The notes beneath the pieces are model-generated. The model was not told the DNA's origin and made no database searches. It worked only from the letters and a program-made list of their open reading frames with translations. A stretch of DNA of 36,561 nucleotides from Archaeoglobus sp. JdFR-27. GTDB taxonomy: Archaea; Halobacteriota; Archaeoglobi; Archaeoglobales; Archaeoglobaceae. Numbering within the stretch: position 1 is the first letter of the stretch; each line of letters opens with the position of its first letter. The position numbers were made by a program, and so were the translations under genes. The stretch lies in the NCBI GenBank assembly GCA_002011235.1, contig MTMO01000057.1, positions 1-36,561 on the forward strand, read 5' to 3'. Below, piece by piece: positions 22,862 through 28,421 of the stretch.

Positions 22862-23194
22862 ATGGCAAAGCTTTTGGCTATAATCTCCAGCGGAAAAGAG
22901 GCAAAGGAGAGGGCTTTGGTAGGAGTTTTGTTTGCAACGAACTCGATGAAGTATAAATGGGCAGACGAGGTAGAGATAGTTTTCTTTGGCCCATCCCAAG
23001 ACTTGCTAATTGAAGATGAAAGTTTCAGAGAAACCGTTCTATCCTCCATCGGTGAGTACAAACCCCTTGTTTGCAGGTTTGTTTCAGAAATTAAGGGGCA
23101 TCCAATGGAGAAACTTGAATTTGCAAGGGTTGAATATGTGGGAAGCATCATAAACCGTCTCATTAACGATGGTTTTATTCCTCTCGTTTTCTAA
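22862..23194 (+). CDS. DsrE-family protein
   Basis: This 110-residue protein has the DsrE/F fold: an N-terminal strand and helix (LLAIISSGKEAKERALVGVLFA), cited by SSGKEAKERAL, a second strand VEIVFFGPSQDLL and a C-terminal DGFIPLVF. DsrE proteins take part in sulfur relay or, in other members, have unknown roles. Only two Cys-free segments surround the single Cys in LVCRFVSE, so a sulfur-carrier role is uncertain. An ATGTATACC box about 25 nt upstream fits a leaderless start. It precedes the exported gene set but has its own promoter. Confidence 0.75.
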   Translation: MAKLLAIISSGKEAKERALVGVLFATNSMKYKWADEVEIVFFGPSQDLLIEDESFRETVLSSIGEYKPLVCRFVSEIKGHPMEKLEFARVEYVGSIINRLINDGFIPLVF

Positions 23195-23235: not shown

Positions 23236-23265
23236 AAATTTATATAGTTGGGGCTTTTTAAAGCC
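23236..23265 (+). promoter_or_regulatory. TATA box plus perfect inverted repeat before the exported gene set
   Basis: AAATTTATAT (23236-23245) is a good TATA box about 29 nt before ATG 23270. Between it and the ATG lies a perfect inverted repeat, GGCTTT-TT-AAAGCC (23252-23265). At that position a bound protein would block transcription start, so it is a candidate operator. It could instead be a tiny 5' hairpin. Confidence 0.5.
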
Positions 23266-23269
23266 GAAC

Positions 23270-25444
23270 ATGAATGTAAAGGTTACTGTATTCCTCACGT
23301 TGTTTATACTCGCAACGGCTGTATCAGTGGTAAACTCTTCAGCCTCGATGTTTCACGTAACTAGAGACGGAAACTTCTCCGATTCCGGTCCAAAGAGCTC
23401 AGATATCTTTTTTGAAGTTGAACTGAGTGGCTTGATCGATGCATCTCCAGTAGTTGACGGAAACGCCGTTTATGTATCGAACTGGTACGGATGGGGGAGC
23501 TGGAATCCCGGATTTTACAGTATCGATGCGCTAACGGGAGAGATTATATGGATAAACAGCCAGATAAACGGTTCTTCCTCAGCAGCCATATCAGGCAATC
23601 GAATCTTCGTAGGCTCCTTAGATGGATACCTAAACTGCCTCAACACCAGCAACGGAGAGATCATATGGAGGAAAAAGATTGAGGACAATCCAGAGTGGTG
23701 GGGGGTAGCCTCTTCTCCCCTTATCTATAACTCAACTGTTTACGTTGTATCATTCTCAGATGGAACTCTCCATGCTTTCGATTTTGATGGAAATGAGAAA
23801 TGGAACTTCTCTACGGGTTCAAGTCCACATTACACCTCTCCTTCAGCCTTTGACGACAAGATATACTTCGTTGGAAAGAAAGGAGACGAAATGGCAGTTT
23901 ACTGCTTGAATGAAAGTGGAGGCGTTCTTTGGAGTACCGAAATAGGCACAACGGATAGTAGCCCAGCCATAGCTGATGGGATCGTGTTCATACCATCATC
24001 AGACAAATTGTATGCGATCAACGCCAGTAACGGAAATATAATGTGGAACTATTCAATACAAGGCAGCATGTCATCGCCCGCAATAGCTTACGGAAAGGTA
24101 TTCGTGGGGACAAGGGACGGCAAGCTCATCTGCCTAAATGAGAGCGGCAAAGAAGAGTGGGTATTCACCGCCAACGGGAAGATAGACTCATCCCCTGCCT
24201 ACGCCGACGGTGTGGTTTACTTTGCAACGAACACCAGAAACGGAACGATTTATGCTTTGAATGCGACAAACGGGGAAGTTTTATGGAAGTATGCCTTAAA
24301 TCCACCCGAAGGACTGTATTACAACGTGATGTCCTCCCCGTACATCTACGATGGACGGCTCTATATAGGAGCTGATGATGGAAAACTCAGATGCTTCGGA
24401 GAACAAATCTTGTGGGAGGATGAGGTTGACCTCTCCCCTGGAGAAAGAACGCTTGACAATGGTGTACAGATAGATAATTTCTCCGCCCTTTCAGCCCTGA
24501 TTGCAGCATCGGAGAAGGGGAACTTCAACGTGACAGTCGTAAACTCAAGCTGGGGACTATACGTTAGCAGCATAGCCGACATACAGCCGGAGAACAACCA
24601 CTATTGGCTGTACGTTGTTAACGGAGAAGCTCCAAGCATTGGTGCGGCAGACTATATCGTAGAGGAGAACGATACGGTAGAGTTCTACTTCGGTCCATGG
24701 GATGTGAGTCATGAGAAAGCAAGATACAGGATCATCATACACGTTAACCTCACGAACGTGCTCCACAAGGTGAGCGTCAGCCTTAGCCCCGGCAACGTGA
24801 CAGTTTTCAGCGGCTCCAACAGCTACTCTATAGGAAACTTCACGGCACTGGGTGCTTTAGATGGGGCAAGCAAAAAGGCCGGATTCTCGTATGCAGTCAG
24901 TGATACCTATTACGACTCCTTTGGCCTGTTCGTAACCTCGATCGCAGGAATCGAGAACCAAGGATTCTCCGGATGGATGTACCAGGTGAACGATGTAGTT
25001 CCATCTGTCGCAGCAGATAAGTACGGGGTTAAAAACGGGGATGTGGTGTGGTGGTACTACTCAACCTCGATGAACGACACACCGAAAACCGCTCCAGCGG
25101 TAATCGAGGTGGTCATCAGCGCACCGGATGTTGTAATAGATGATCTGAAGGTTACTAGTGCCCAAAGAGGCGGAAACGCCACAGCCACGATAAACATCAC
25201 TGCTGTAACTCCAGGATGGTACGTTTTGGTTGCGAGTGGAATTAATACAGCAGGAGACTACATCGCTGGAATTAGCACTGTCAGGCTTGAACAGTCAGAG
25301 AATTTAAGTGTCCCGGTAATAATTCCGATCCCAACTCAGATTTCTGAAGGGATTTACTCAATCTATGTCGGAGTTTACAGACTCTCTGGCTATCCAGACA
25401 ACCTAATCTCCTACAAAGGACCGGTCAGCTGTGAGGTGAGGTGA
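23270..25444 (+). CDS. Exported PQQ-type beta-propeller protein with two DUF4430 domains
   Basis: This is a 724-residue secreted protein. Residues about 1-26 are a signal peptide (hydrophobic TVFLTLFILATAVSVV). About eight PQQ/PQL-type blades follow (about 45-380), each of the form SSPAxxxGxVYVG...LYALNxxNGExxW. Examples are SSPAIAYGKVFVGTRDGKL and SSPAYADGVVYFATN. Two DUF4430 domains come next: about 400-485 (LSALIAASEKGNF to DTVEFYFGPW) and about 515-605 (LGALDGASKKAGF, GWMYQVND, GDVVWWYY). A final beta-sandwich (about 620-724) ends without a sorting signal. The propeller probably binds proteins or ligand rather than catalysing anything. Its stop overlaps the next ATG by 1 nt (TGATG), so the two are translated together. 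Confidence 0.85.
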   Translation: MNVKVTVFLTLFILATAVSVVNSSASMFHVTRDGNFSDSGPKSSDIFFEVELSGLIDASPVVDGNAVYVSNWYGWGSWNPGFYSIDALTGEIIWINSQINGSSSAAISGNRIFVGSLDGYLNCLNTSNGEIIWRKKIEDNPEWWGVASSPLIYNSTVYVVSFSDGTLHAFDFDGNEKWNFSTGSSPHYTSPSAFDDKIYFVGKKGDEMAVYCLNESGGVLWSTEIGTTDSSPAIADGIVFIPSSDKLYAINASNGNIMWNYSIQGSMSSPAIAYGKVFVGTRDGKLICLNESGKEEWVFTANGKIDSSPAYADGVVYFATNTRNGTIYALNATNGEVLWKYALNPPEGLYYNVMSSPYIYDGRLYIGADDGKLRCFGEQILWEDEVDLSPGERTLDNGVQIDNFSALSALIAASEKGNFNVTVVNSSWGLYVSSIADIQPENNHYWLYVVNGEAPSIGAADYIVEENDTVEFYFGPWDVSHEKARYRIIIHVNLTNVLHKVSVSLSPGNVTVFSGSNSYSIGNFTALGALDGASKKAGFSYAVSDTYYDSFGLFVTSIAGIENQGFSGWMYQVNDVVPSVAADKYGVKNGDVVWWYYSTSMNDTPKTAPAVIEVVISAPDVVIDDLKVTSAQRGGNATATINITAVTPGWYVLVASGINTAGDYIAGISTVRLEQSENLSVPVIIPIPTQISEGIYSIYVGVYRLSGYPDNLISYKGPVSCEVR

Positions 25445-27393
25445 TGGGGGTAATGGGTTCTGGGTTTGCGAGGGGTTCTTTAATATCGTTATGCCTACTC
25501 TTAACCTTATTTTTAACCCTGAACCCAACCGCAGCACTGAACCTCTCGGTCAGCCAAGTGGATGACAAACTGAAGATAACCCTTGACGAGCCAGCGTTCA
25601 TCGTTATAAGGCAGAACAATGGTGTTCCAATTTACGCCTATGGAACTGAAATCTACTACAATCCATACATCTCTGGAAATGTGATTGTAAATGCGATCAC
25701 CGAAAACGAACGCATCTCTAAGGAAATCGAGTTCAGCCAGAGTTCTACATCTTCTACATCCCAAGTATATACTCCAACGATAAACTACTGGTGGAGTGGA
25801 ATTGTAAAACTCCCCCTAGGTTTCTTCAAGAAGGAGTCGGAAGATGGAAAGGTGTACAAGATCGACTGGAGAACGGCCTTAGGGGCCTTAGACATGGCAT
25901 CCAGGAAAGGAAACTTTGATTACGTAATCAAATCCACTGAATGGGGACCATTCGTAAAATGCATAGCAGGAAAATGCGAAAAGAGCGAGGGGGCTTTCTC
26001 AGGCTGGATGTATCAGGTGAACGGAGAAACCCCCTCTGTAGGTTCCCATGAGTATCCGGTAAGAGAAGGAGACGAGGTCGTCTGGTTCTTTGTAAAAACT
26101 CCAGATGGAACACCTGGGAGCTCGTCGAGGGTTTTGAGGATATTTGTATTCTACAACAATACCGTATGGGGGAACAATGAAACCACAAACCAAACCAACC
26201 GATCCATCAATCAGTCTATCAACCAGTCTGCCAATCAAAAGGCTAACGAGTTCCCGCTCTCGATCTACGACAGCAGAATAATAAGGGCCTTAAGCTATCT
26301 AAAAAGTCTGCAGCAAGAAAACGGTGGATTTGCCAATCCTAGTGAGGAGGCTACCCTGGCAAAAACGAGCTGGGTGGTAATGACGATGGTCGCAGCCAAG
26401 CAGAATCCAAAGTGGTGGAAAAAAGACAACACATCTGCAATTGACTACATAGGGAGGGAACTCAAAAACCAGATCAAATACATGGGCACGGCCGATTATG
26501 CAAGGATGATTCTAGCTTTGTATGCTGTTGGAAAAGATCCCAGAAGCTTTGGAGGGGTTGATCTGGTTGACTTCCTGAAATCCAAGGTAAAAGATAGCGG
26601 GCAGATCGGAGACTTCACCTATACGACAATTTGGGGGCTAATGGCTCTGAAGGTTAGCGGTGAAGATGTATCAAAAACGGTCAAATGGCTTATAAATCAG
26701 CAGAACGATGATGGTGGCTTTGGTTGGGCTCCCGAGCAGCCCAGCGATTACGATGATACCGCTGCAGCTATTCAAGCCTTGGTTGCATCGAATGTAAGCT
26801 GTGATAGCGATACGATCAGAAAGGCTTTCGAATATCTGAAAACTGGCCAGAACGATGATGGTGGATTTAGATACTTCGGGAATTCCTCAAGCAACGCTGC
26901 CAGCGACTCGTGGATAATTCAGGCGATAGTTGCATGTAACGGAAACCCACTGGAGTGGGAGAAGAACAACAGGAGTGTTGTGGATCATCTGCTATCCCTT
27001 CAGCAACCAGATGGGTCCTTCAACTACACAACGTATCAGAAATCGAATCCCGGATACATGACTGCATCAGCAATAATGTCCCTTCTGGGCAAACCATTCC
27101 CAATTAAACCCACGAAATGGGAACACATAACCCTAAACGAAACTTTGAGGGAAACTAAACCCAGAGAAACTCACGAAAAAACTCCTGCAAATGTAACCAA
27201 AACAGAAAACGAGTCTGTGAAGGCTGTGAAGAAGAACAAAACCATTGAACAAGTTATACCAACCGCTAAACCTACCGCTAAACCCACAGAGGAAAAGCCT
27301 ACTCCTAAATCCCCAGAGAACAAGATACCCGGCTTTGAGATGTTAATCGGTATCTCAGCTCTTGCCGTAGCACTGTGGATGAGAAGAATATAA
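25444..27393 (+). CDS. Surface-anchored DUF4430 + alpha/alpha-toroid protein, transcobalamin-like architecture, PGF-CTERM
   Basis: This is a 649-residue exported protein. It has a signal peptide (about 8-35, SLISLCLLLTLFLTL), a beta-rich N-domain, and a DUF4430 domain at about 145-240 (LGALDMASRKGNF, GWMYQVNGETPS, GDEVVWFF). An Asn/Ser linker follows. An alpha/alpha toroid (about 275-560) has at least four prenyltransferase/squalene-cyclase-type repeats with QxxxGGF motifs (LQQENGGF, QQNDDGGFGW, GQNDDGGFRY, LQQPDGSFNY). After a Thr/Lys/Pro linker comes a PGF-CTERM anchor (IPGFEMLIGISALAVALWMRRI, P-G-F plus helix plus basic end). The toroid plus DUF4430 pairing is the fold set of intrinsic factor/transcobalamin, though in reverse order. 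No terpene-cyclase acid motif is evident. GGTGAGGTG precedes ATG 25444; the next gene is BtuF-like. Confidence 0.85.
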   Translation: MGVMGSGFARGSLISLCLLLTLFLTLNPTAALNLSVSQVDDKLKITLDEPAFIVIRQNNGVPIYAYGTEIYYNPYISGNVIVNAITENERISKEIEFSQSSTSSTSQVYTPTINYWWSGIVKLPLGFFKKESEDGKVYKIDWRTALGALDMASRKGNFDYVIKSTEWGPFVKCIAGKCEKSEGAFSGWMYQVNGETPSVGSHEYPVREGDEVVWFFVKTPDGTPGSSSRVLRIFVFYNNTVWGNNETTNQTNRSINQSINQSANQKANEFPLSIYDSRIIRALSYLKSLQQENGGFANPSEEATLAKTSWVVMTMVAAKQNPKWWKKDNTSAIDYIGRELKNQIKYMGTADYARMILALYAVGKDPRSFGGVDLVDFLKSKVKDSGQIGDFTYTTIWGLMALKVSGEDVSKTVKWLINQQNDDGGFGWAPEQPSDYDDTAAAIQALVASNVSCDSDTIRKAFEYLKTGQNDDGGFRYFGNSSSNAASDSWIIQAIVACNGNPLEWEKNNRSVVDHLLSLQQPDGSFNYTTYQKSNPGYMTASAIMSLLGKPFPIKPTKWEHITLNETLRETKPRETHEKTPANVTKTENESVKAVKKNKTIEQVIPTAKPTAKPTEEKPTPKSPENKIPGFEMLIGISALAVALWMRRI

Positions 27394-27416
27394 AGCAGGA
27401 AGAATCAATACGAAAT

Positions 27417-28421
27417 ATGAGACTAAAAATGAGATCAAAATTCCTCATTTTTCTTCTAATTTTTTCCGTAATTTTGGTTGGATGCTCAAAGAACGCAGTA
27501 AACAACCAGAGCCCGAAGGCAACACCAACAATCTTAGGGGATGGATCGAGTAGCACACACAACGCACACAACGCACACAACACATCACACAACACCTCGT
27601 ATCCCATAACGGTTGTGGACGATTTCGGGTTCAGGGTTACGATAGATAGAAAACCCGAGCGTATAGTTTCCCTCTCCCCAAGTAACACAGAAAATCTCTT
27701 CGCCCTCAGCTTAAGAGATGAAATCGTTGGCGTTACAGATTATTGTAACTTTCCACCCGAAGCTCTGAACAAGACGAAAATTGGGGGCTTTACAACGATC
27801 AACATAGAGAAGATACTTCAGCTCAACCCAGACCTAGTCGTTGCTTCATATGGTAACGGTCAGCAGAACGTTGAAACTATGAAGAATCTGGGATTGAAGG
27901 TTATTGCATTCAATCCAAAATCGATAAAGGATATCGAAAGGAATATTCTGCTTCTGGGAAAGATAACTGGAAAGGAGAGAGAAGCCATGGAAATTGTAGA
28001 ATTTATGGAAAAAAAGGTTAATGAGAGCAGAAACGATTTTAAGATAAAACCAAGGGTCATGCACATCCTATGGCATGATCCGATCTGGGTGAGTGGATCT
28101 AACACCTTCATCGATGAGATAATTAAGATTGCCGGGGGAGAAAACGTCTTCTCAGATCTTGATGGATGGAAAATAGTCAGCAAAGAGGACATAATCAGCA
28201 GAAACCCCGATGTGATTCTCATCAGTTCGGGCTCCGGAATGGGTGGAAAAGGAGAGAACTACATCTACGAATGGGTCGTAAGGGAGCTTGATATAGATGC
28301 TGTTAAGAAGGGGCACGTCTATGTGATAGATGCAGACATCATTTCGCGACCTTCTTATAGAATCGTTTTCGCACTGGATAATGTCTCCACAATTCTGAGA
28401 GATGTTGCAGCTTCAAGATAA
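27417..28421 (+). CDS. BtuF-like ABC substrate-binding lipoprotein
   Basis: This is a periplasmic-binding-type receptor of the helical-backbone (cobalamin/iron-siderophore) class, 334 residues. Residues about 5-22 form a lipoprotein signal ending VILVGCSKN, with the lipobox Cys. A linker with four AHN/SHN-type His-Asn repeats follows (about 43-58). The binding domain starts TVVDDFGFRVTI and RIVSLSPSNTENLFAL, continues with VGVTDYCNFPPEA, NPDLVVASYG, KIAGGENVFSD and RNPDVILIS. This matches BtuF/FecB-like proteins for cobalamin, haem or siderophores. No permease or ATPase gene is present in the window. ATG 27417 is chosen because the GTG at 27375 lies within the preceding gene and would add 14 charged residues before the signal peptide. 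Confidence 0.85.
   Translation: MRLKMRSKFLIFLLIFSVILVGCSKNAVNNQSPKATPTILGDGSSSTHNAHNAHNTSHNTSYPITVVDDFGFRVTIDRKPERIVSLSPSNTENLFALSLRDEIVGVTDYCNFPPEALNKTKIGGFTTINIEKILQLNPDLVVASYGNGQQNVETMKNLGLKVIAFNPKSIKDIERNILLLGKITGKEREAMEIVEFMEKKVNESRNDFKIKPRVMHILWHDPIWVSGSNTFIDEIIKIAGGENVFSDLDGWKIVSKEDIISRNPDVILISSGSGMGGKGENYIYEWVVRELDIDAVKKGHVYVIDADIISRPSYRIVFALDNVSTILRDVAASR

Follow-up and report, generated by a model that had tools for sequence, protein, structure and literature searches.

We analysed a window of 36,561 nt (the whole stretch of DNA considered here) from the heat-loving archaeon Archaeoglobus sp. JdFR-27 (assembly GCA_002011235.1, contig MTMO01000057.1, positions 1-36,561, forward strand). 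Three consecutive open reading frames (ORFs) on its plus strand encode exported or anchored proteins: a propeller protein (gene 1, 23270..25444), a DUF4430-toroid surface protein (gene 2, 25444..27393) and a BtuF-class substrate-binding lipoprotein (gene 3, 27417..28421). An initial annotation had read them as one surface capture module. The coordinates were confirmed and the gene order is repeated across genomes, indicating that this trio, a candidate corrinoid-capture system, is a real module.

Gene 1 encodes a secreted protein of 724 amino acids with a signal peptide, a pyrroloquinoline quinone (PQQ)/BamB-like propeller, two DUF4430 (SLBB) domains and a C-terminal beta-domain that is conserved among trio relatives. 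The propeller matched PF13360 (E=2e-44), and DUF4430 (PF14478) scored 101 bits against a Pfam curated cut-off of 23.8 bits, as expected from the initial annotation of a beta-propeller with two such domains. The first lies at 24491..24691 (motif SWGLYVSSI, 52.3 bits) and the second at 24845..25063 (motif FGLFVTSI, 63.8 bits); across genomes, the number of DUF4430 domains detected in propeller proteins varied from zero to four. The AlphaFold model had a predicted local distance difference test (pLDDT) score of 90, and Foldseek matched it to Cake8 and BamB, with template modelling scores on the target of 0.92 and 0.82, respectively.

Genes 1 and 2 meet at TGATG, where the stop codon of the former (TGA, 25442-25444) overlaps the ATG of the latter (25444), so the annotated translational-coupling junction is present. 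The gene 2 product has 650 amino acids (residues are counted from GTG 25441) and consists of a signal peptide, a beta-sandwich at about 30-100, a DUF4430 domain (25879..26091; PF14478, 48.8-52.4 bits), a flexible linker, an alpha/alpha toroid (residues 268-560, 26242..27120; PF00432, 54.6 bits), a Thr/Pro stalk and a PGF-CTERM-like anchor (27322..27390). The anchor scored 14.8 bits for PF18204, under the cut-off of 18.8, and its G631-F632 is invariant in 16 relatives. These results bear out the description of gene 2 as an anchored protein in which DUF4430 precedes the toroid, the reverse of the animal order, by both Pfam and the structure model. In the model, the SLBB domain and the toroid mostly exceeded pLDDT 90; the relative position of these two halves is not fixed, because linker 241-265 is disordered and the predicted template modelling score (pTM) is 0.53.

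Gene 3 matched Peripla_BP_2 (PF01497) at 126 bits and carries the lipobox LVGC, whose Cys (codon 27483-27485) is invariant in 15 relatives. Its ORF opens at GTG 27375, and ATG 27417 sits 23 bases past the stop of gene 2; the latter is probably the start codon. In comparison with PDB, the iron-binding chain 4m7o was the best match and BtuF chains came next (E=2e-28 to 3e-25), with haem and siderophore binders also matched. Thus, the annotated BtuF/FecB-class lipoprotein was recovered by family, lipobox and structural relatives.

Animal B12 carriers, present in human saliva and blood, pair an SLBB beta-domain with an alpha/alpha toroid. We compared the DUF4430 domain of gene 2 alone with PDB in a single-sequence search, and it matched human haptocorrin (transcobalamin-1, 4kki) over most of its length at E=7.7e-5, with no other match below E 0.05. 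At this E-value, the likeness is not a chance one, and the domain is a candidate corrinoid binder of transcobalamin type. The three DUF4430 domains of the trio, at 52-64 bits, exceed the curated cut-off and belong by this score to the transcobalamin-like SLBB clade, and gene 2 combines export with a toroid fusion, as clade members do (signal helix, toroid 268-560).

The likeness extends to the hairpin that contacts the corrinoid. Residues 168-179 of gene 2 (25942..25977, WGPFVKCIAGKC) align with this hairpin of haptocorrin (STEWGPFVKCIAGKC in the archaeal protein versus ERSWGPYITCIQGLC in haptocorrin), whose residues we identified as Arg357, Trp359 and Tyr362 from the Arg-x-Trp-x-x-Tyr spacing. 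It has been documented that these three bulky residues stabilise the corrinoid complex and offset the missing nucleotide of cobinamide (PMC4350170, citing structures). Trp168 and Phe171 of gene 2 align with Trp359 and Tyr362, and haptocorrin also has a Cys pair at the positions of Cys174 and Cys179. The archaeal protein thus retains the Trp and is aromatic at position 362, whereas it lacks the Arg. In every SLBB domain of a toroid protein that aligns at these sites, the equivalent of position 359 is Trp (22) or Tyr (6), and that of position 362 is Phe (25) or Tyr (5). In the gene 2 model, strands 161-166 and 169-175 follow helix 146-157 and form a beta-hairpin insert bearing Trp168 and Phe171.

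The toroid, which is very conserved and has pLDDT above 90 in most blocks, gave a different picture. In Pfam, it matched SQHop besides PF00432. A profile search returned 50 PDB chains, the best being squalene-hopene cyclases, and a fold search returned terpene cyclases, prenyltransferases and thioester domains. It contains a DYDDT motif (residues 436-440, 26746..26760) in which D436-x-D438-D439 aligns with the catalytic DxDD of the class II terpene cyclases squalene-hopene cyclase (SHC) and drimenyl diphosphate synthase (SsDMS). D438-D439-T440 is invariant and is also kept in bacterial members. It is in this kinship with cyclases that the parallel with transcobalamin is weakest, and no other trait of the locus is as intriguing.

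We then examined the recurrence of the trio. In a comparison set of 40 genomes around and including that of JdFR-27, DUF4430 was present in 19, and the order propeller-toroid-BtuF was found in 14 Archaeoglobaceae genomes (JdFR-27 included), one of which has one gene inserted. A GTDB genome scan with an alignment of the toroid protein extended the loci beyond this set to Archaeoglobus, Geoglobus, Methanosarcinales, Methanoculleus, Methanocalculus and a few bacteria, with the trio in order in about 25 archaeal genomes, mostly Archaeoglobaceae. The trio is therefore conserved outside its own genome. In one Archaeoglobaceae genome (L050/L121), a histone-deacetylase-family gene on the opposite strand lies between the toroid and BtuF genes.

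Neighbourhoods of relatives, inspected up to 20 kb, revealed consistent company, and btuCD is adjacent to the trio in many archaeal relatives. Six loci (L040, L044, L046, L049, L051 and L052) share a FecCD permease, an ATP-binding cassette (ABC) ATPase and a protein of about 200 residues directly upstream of the trio. The tested transporter genes of trio-linked loci had the vitamin B12 permease BtuC and a corrinoid ABC ATPase as their best NCBIfam matches, and the protein of about 200 residues is CbiZ, adenosylcobinamide amidohydrolase. The genes btuC-btuD-cbiZ stand immediately 5' of propeller-toroid-BtuF in L095, L099, L102, L103, L104, L108, L109, L116 and L049; btuC stands 3' of the trio in L100, L106, L110, L111, L112 and L121, and cbiB stands 5' of it in some other genomes. 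In genome G005 (L137, L043), btuC-btuD-cbiZ shares a strand with the trio at a distance of about 10 kb, and some of the intervening genes are of ABC type.

The toroid and a BtuF-class domain form a single polypeptide in four loci of Methanoculleus and Methanocalculus (L115, L117, L118 and L119). The fusion of L119 terminates in a PGF-type anchor. In bacterial loci of Syntrophomonas (L125) and Clostridiales (L127), adjacent toroid and SLBB proteins lie beside a double ABC ATPase and a membrane protein that is CbiQ-like as assigned by eye. It thus seems that importers of two classes, BtuCDF and the energy-coupling factor (ECF) type, partner one capture module.

The initial annotation had placed the importer elsewhere in the genome, and family searches of the draft assembly (99.7% complete) located a candidate for it. 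They revealed two strong FecCD permeases, on contigs 15 and 28. The contig 28 permease has an ATPase neighbour that matches corrinoid ATPases and has no adjoining binding protein. A tree built from 45 distinct permease sequences places it with all archaeal trio-linked permeases, split from the rest with a support of 0.999; permeases outside this clade nearly all have their own binding protein. These data assign the BtuC-clade btuCD of contig 28 as the putative importer. The contig 15 system was rejected for this role, as a ferrichrome-like binding protein already accompanies it and its permease falls in the other clade. In genomes G003 and G004, the trio is likewise detached, and a btuCD pair occurs without an adjoining binding protein.

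The same searches did not find CbiD, CbiC or CbiG and detected only three TP-methylase genes. A salvage cluster, cobY-cobS / cbiB-cobD / cbiZ-cobT, lies on contig 29 (L155:5274-10323), where CobS, CbiB and CobT exceeded NCBIfam cut-offs, CobY and CobD were only "-like", and CbiZ was present. Corrinoid users include the corrinoid subunits of carbon monoxide dehydrogenase/acetyl-CoA synthase and three B12-binding domains. Since CbiC, CbiD and CbiG are absent and both corrinoid users and a salvage cluster are present in this draft genome, JdFR-27 probably depends on corrinoids whose ring it is unable to build, although it can reassemble their lower part. Across the 40 genomes, the presence of the trio did not in general go along with a loss of corrin synthesis.

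Based on gene content and domain composition, we consider the trio very probably to be a surface module that scavenges corrinoids and feeds BtuCD. In the proposed route, SLBB domains of the propeller and toroid proteins would trap corrinoids outside the cell, at its surface; if they act as transcobalamin does, the lower face would be taken first by the SLBB hairpin, and the toroid would then cover the upper face. The gene 3 product, a BtuF-class protein held by a lipid anchor, would next receive the corrinoid and deliver it to BtuCD, the importer whose genes lie on another contig. Inside the cell, CbiZ would trim imported corrinoids, and the cobY-cobS-cbiB-cobT cluster would rebuild the organism's own cobamide. 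Most of the trapping would fall to the SLBB-toroid protein, with the propeller as an additional trap or a spacer and BtuF as the acceptor. The propeller had been annotated as a scaffold; it bears DUF4430 domains of its own, so a scaffold-only role is not established. We infer binding, the order of transfer and a broad specificity that would include base-less cobinamide. Two features, the presence of CbiZ in the operon and a hairpin of haptocorrin type, suggest tolerance of varied or incomplete corrinoids. More tentatively, and with doubt outweighing confidence, the archaeal SLBB-toroid may be a prokaryotic counterpart of haptocorrin that retains the two aromatic hairpin positions, sandwiches any corrinoid, including cobinamide, and passes it directly to BtuF, to which the toroid is fused in Methanomicrobiales; an acid of DxDDT might then contact or chemically prepare the corrinoid (e.g. 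its axial ligand), with no terpene cyclisation.

Several observations weigh against a corrinoid-scavenging role. The trio of JdFR-27 itself adjoins neither btuCD nor cbiZ, gene 3 falls under the NCBIfam BtuF equivalog cut-off (124.6 versus 234 bits), and many relatives hold both the trio and corrin synthesis. Neither the 50 sequence matches of the toroid nor its top 50 fold matches included a transcobalamin; by both measures, its nearest solved relatives are class II terpene cyclases. With its low pTM, the ligand-free model of gene 2 leaves the SLBB domain and toroid undocked. Transcobalamin takes up its ligand on the beta-domain, and only then does the alpha-domain close (PMC11107200); because closure occurs only with ligand, the undocked model neither shows nor excludes a shared cleft. 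The linkage counts, which themselves favour the corrinoid reading (FecCD no more than 10 kb from the trio in 11/18 DUF4430 relatives versus about 0.7 expected, or about 15 times; CbiZ in 6/18 versus about 0.2), ignore shared ancestry, the genomes being related and the binomial values not being probabilities. The linkage spans genera (FecCD in 9/12, CbiZ in 5/12), with differing gene orders.

The initial annotation had named the ligand as a corrinoid, or else haem or a siderophore. Under the latter option, the trio would capture another metal-tetrapyrrole or an iron-siderophore (haem, an F430-like compound or a siderophore), and the FecCD/BtuF homology would stem from the iron-uptake branch of these families. 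The FecCD/BtuF families cover many ligands, gene 3 resembles haem and siderophore binders too, and Burroughs et al. proposed a different metabolite for archaea, since many of them make B12 (PMC1796856). However, the trio-linked permeases form their own clade apart from permeases that nearly all have binding proteins, the genome of JdFR-27 lacks ring synthesis, and CbiZ and CbiB lie inside trio operons. We know of no role of CbiZ or CbiB in iron uptake. Because of the CbiZ/CbiB linkage and the permease tree, we rejected haem and siderophores as improbable ligands, and the corrinoid part of the annotation stood; a corrinoid is favoured because of the btuC-btuD-cbiZ operons, the toroid-BtuF fusions and the missing corrin-ring genes. 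A corrinoid might also be bound for a surface store or for exclusion of harmful analogues, as suggested for haptocorrin, and not to feed an importer. Such a role would suit the haptocorrin-like hairpin residues and the many trio carriers that make corrinoids themselves, but it is very improbable given the BtuF-class gene in the trio, the BtuF fusion in methanogens, the BtuCD linkage and the absence of ring synthesis from JdFR-27.

The remaining alternatives concern the surface proteins themselves. The toroid could be an extracellular enzyme of class II terpene-cyclase type, recruited to the surface by DUF4430, in place of a binding lid. Its invariant DxDDT aligns with the DxDD of SHC and drimenyl diphosphate synthase, including the position of the latter's mutated Asp303, and such cyclases are its nearest solved relatives. 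Against this stand the export and anchoring of the protein, its fusion to a B12-type binding protein in methanogens, a DUF4430 partner that resembles haptocorrin, and operons with btuCD and cbiZ and not with isoprenoid genes, which together leave an enzymatic role very little likelihood. Propeller and beta-sandwich domains are also frequent in adhesion, and Burroughs et al. suggested tethering roles for partner domains; the surface proteins could thus bind wall or S-layer polysaccharide and merely tether or organise the surface, with the linkage to B12 genes being incidental. We regard this as extremely improbable, as it hardly accounts for the fusion of toroid and BtuF, and the btuC linkage, at about 15 times expectation, occurs in several arrangements in Archaeoglobales, Methanosarcinales and Methanomicrobiales.

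Upstream of gene 1, a TATA-like element (TTTATATA, 23239-23246, plus strand) lies 24-31 bases 5' of the ATG, and because of it the trio looks like one transcript, with 23239..23265 as its probable promoter. The element is followed by a palindrome (GGCTTTTTAAAGCC, 23252-23265, plus strand), which is missing at the equivalent position in the two closest relatives and is therefore unsupported as an operator. A second motif, TTGATTT-AAATCAA, could be an operator for corrinoid genes; it was picked after inspection of the data and was not accepted as a shared operator, since no more than 6 of the 38 promoters scored at p<=0.05, a weak excess. It is perfect upstream of cobT in L155 and of the propeller gene in L054, and has one mismatch upstream of the propeller gene in L113. 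An Rfam scan of the window detected one tRNA and no cobalamin riboswitch or other RNA. The ORF that precedes gene 1 (22862-23194, 110 residues) has no Pfam match, is kept in the neighbouring species L041 and resembles DsrE by eye only.

If the corrinoid-scavenging reading is true, archaea and animals would use a component of one kind to capture B12-type cofactors, which archaea would do at the cell surface, and one capture module would serve different importers, BtuFCD in archaea and the ECF type in bacteria. DUF4430 would gain a function testable with soluble domains, and some Archaeoglobus-like organisms may depend on others for corrinoids. The trio matters because JdFR-27 seems to have no means of making the B12 ring on its own.

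The initial annotation's view that no archaeal system of this form had been described was too strong. In a literature search with most subscription journals outside reach, only one such account was found: in defining the SLBB superfamily, Burroughs et al. (2007) reported toroid fusions in both orders, propeller fusions and operons of two SLBB proteins, named euryarchaeal members including Archaeoglobus and Methanosarcina, and suggested that bacterial members scavenge B12 together with CbiO/CbiQ (PMC1796856). The trio shares with those proteins the domain family, toroid and propeller fusions, paired SLBB operons, export and the proposed B12 scavenging. It differs in its archaeal partners (BtuFCD and CbiZ, theirs being CbiO/CbiQ), in the toroid-BtuF fusion of methanogens and in a host genome without corrin-ring synthesis. 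The protein design was thus predicted in 2007, and the present evidence supports corrinoids as the ligand in archaea too, because of BtuCD, CbiZ, the BtuF fusion and the loss of ring synthesis in JdFR-27; if true, this would answer their question of the archaeal ligand in favour of corrinoids.

Among prokaryotic systems, the closest functional analogue in bacteria is Bacteroides BtuG, a surface lipoprotein whose seven-bladed propeller binds cobalamin and cobinamide (PMC6143338). Both systems would capture corrinoids at the surface ahead of a dedicated importer, but the BtuG propeller itself binds and has the outer-membrane partner BtuB in a Gram-negative cell, whereas the archaeal propeller is BamB-like and carries DUF4430. 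BtuG was not among the listed matches of the gene 1 propeller, the best being BamB and designed PQQ propellers. Archaeal BtuCD-BtuF and CbiZ salvage has the same transporter family and salvage enzyme in its operon; the trio adds two transcobalamin-type surface proteins, and in JdFR-27 btuF stands apart from btuCD. The bacterial loci L125 and L127 likewise have neighbouring toroid and SLBB proteins, with ECF-type neighbours (double ABC ATPase, CbiQ-like protein) where archaea have BtuCDF. With animal haptocorrin, intrinsic factor and transcobalamin, gene 2 shares an SLBB domain with a corrinoid-contacting hairpin (Trp359/Tyr362 equivalents) and an alpha/alpha toroid. In contrast to the animal carriers, which are soluble, the archaeal protein is anchored, has the reverse domain order and has a toroid that resembles class II cyclases more closely than it does the alpha-domain of animals, and it would hand its ligand over to an ABC importer, whereas the animal route is endocytosis.

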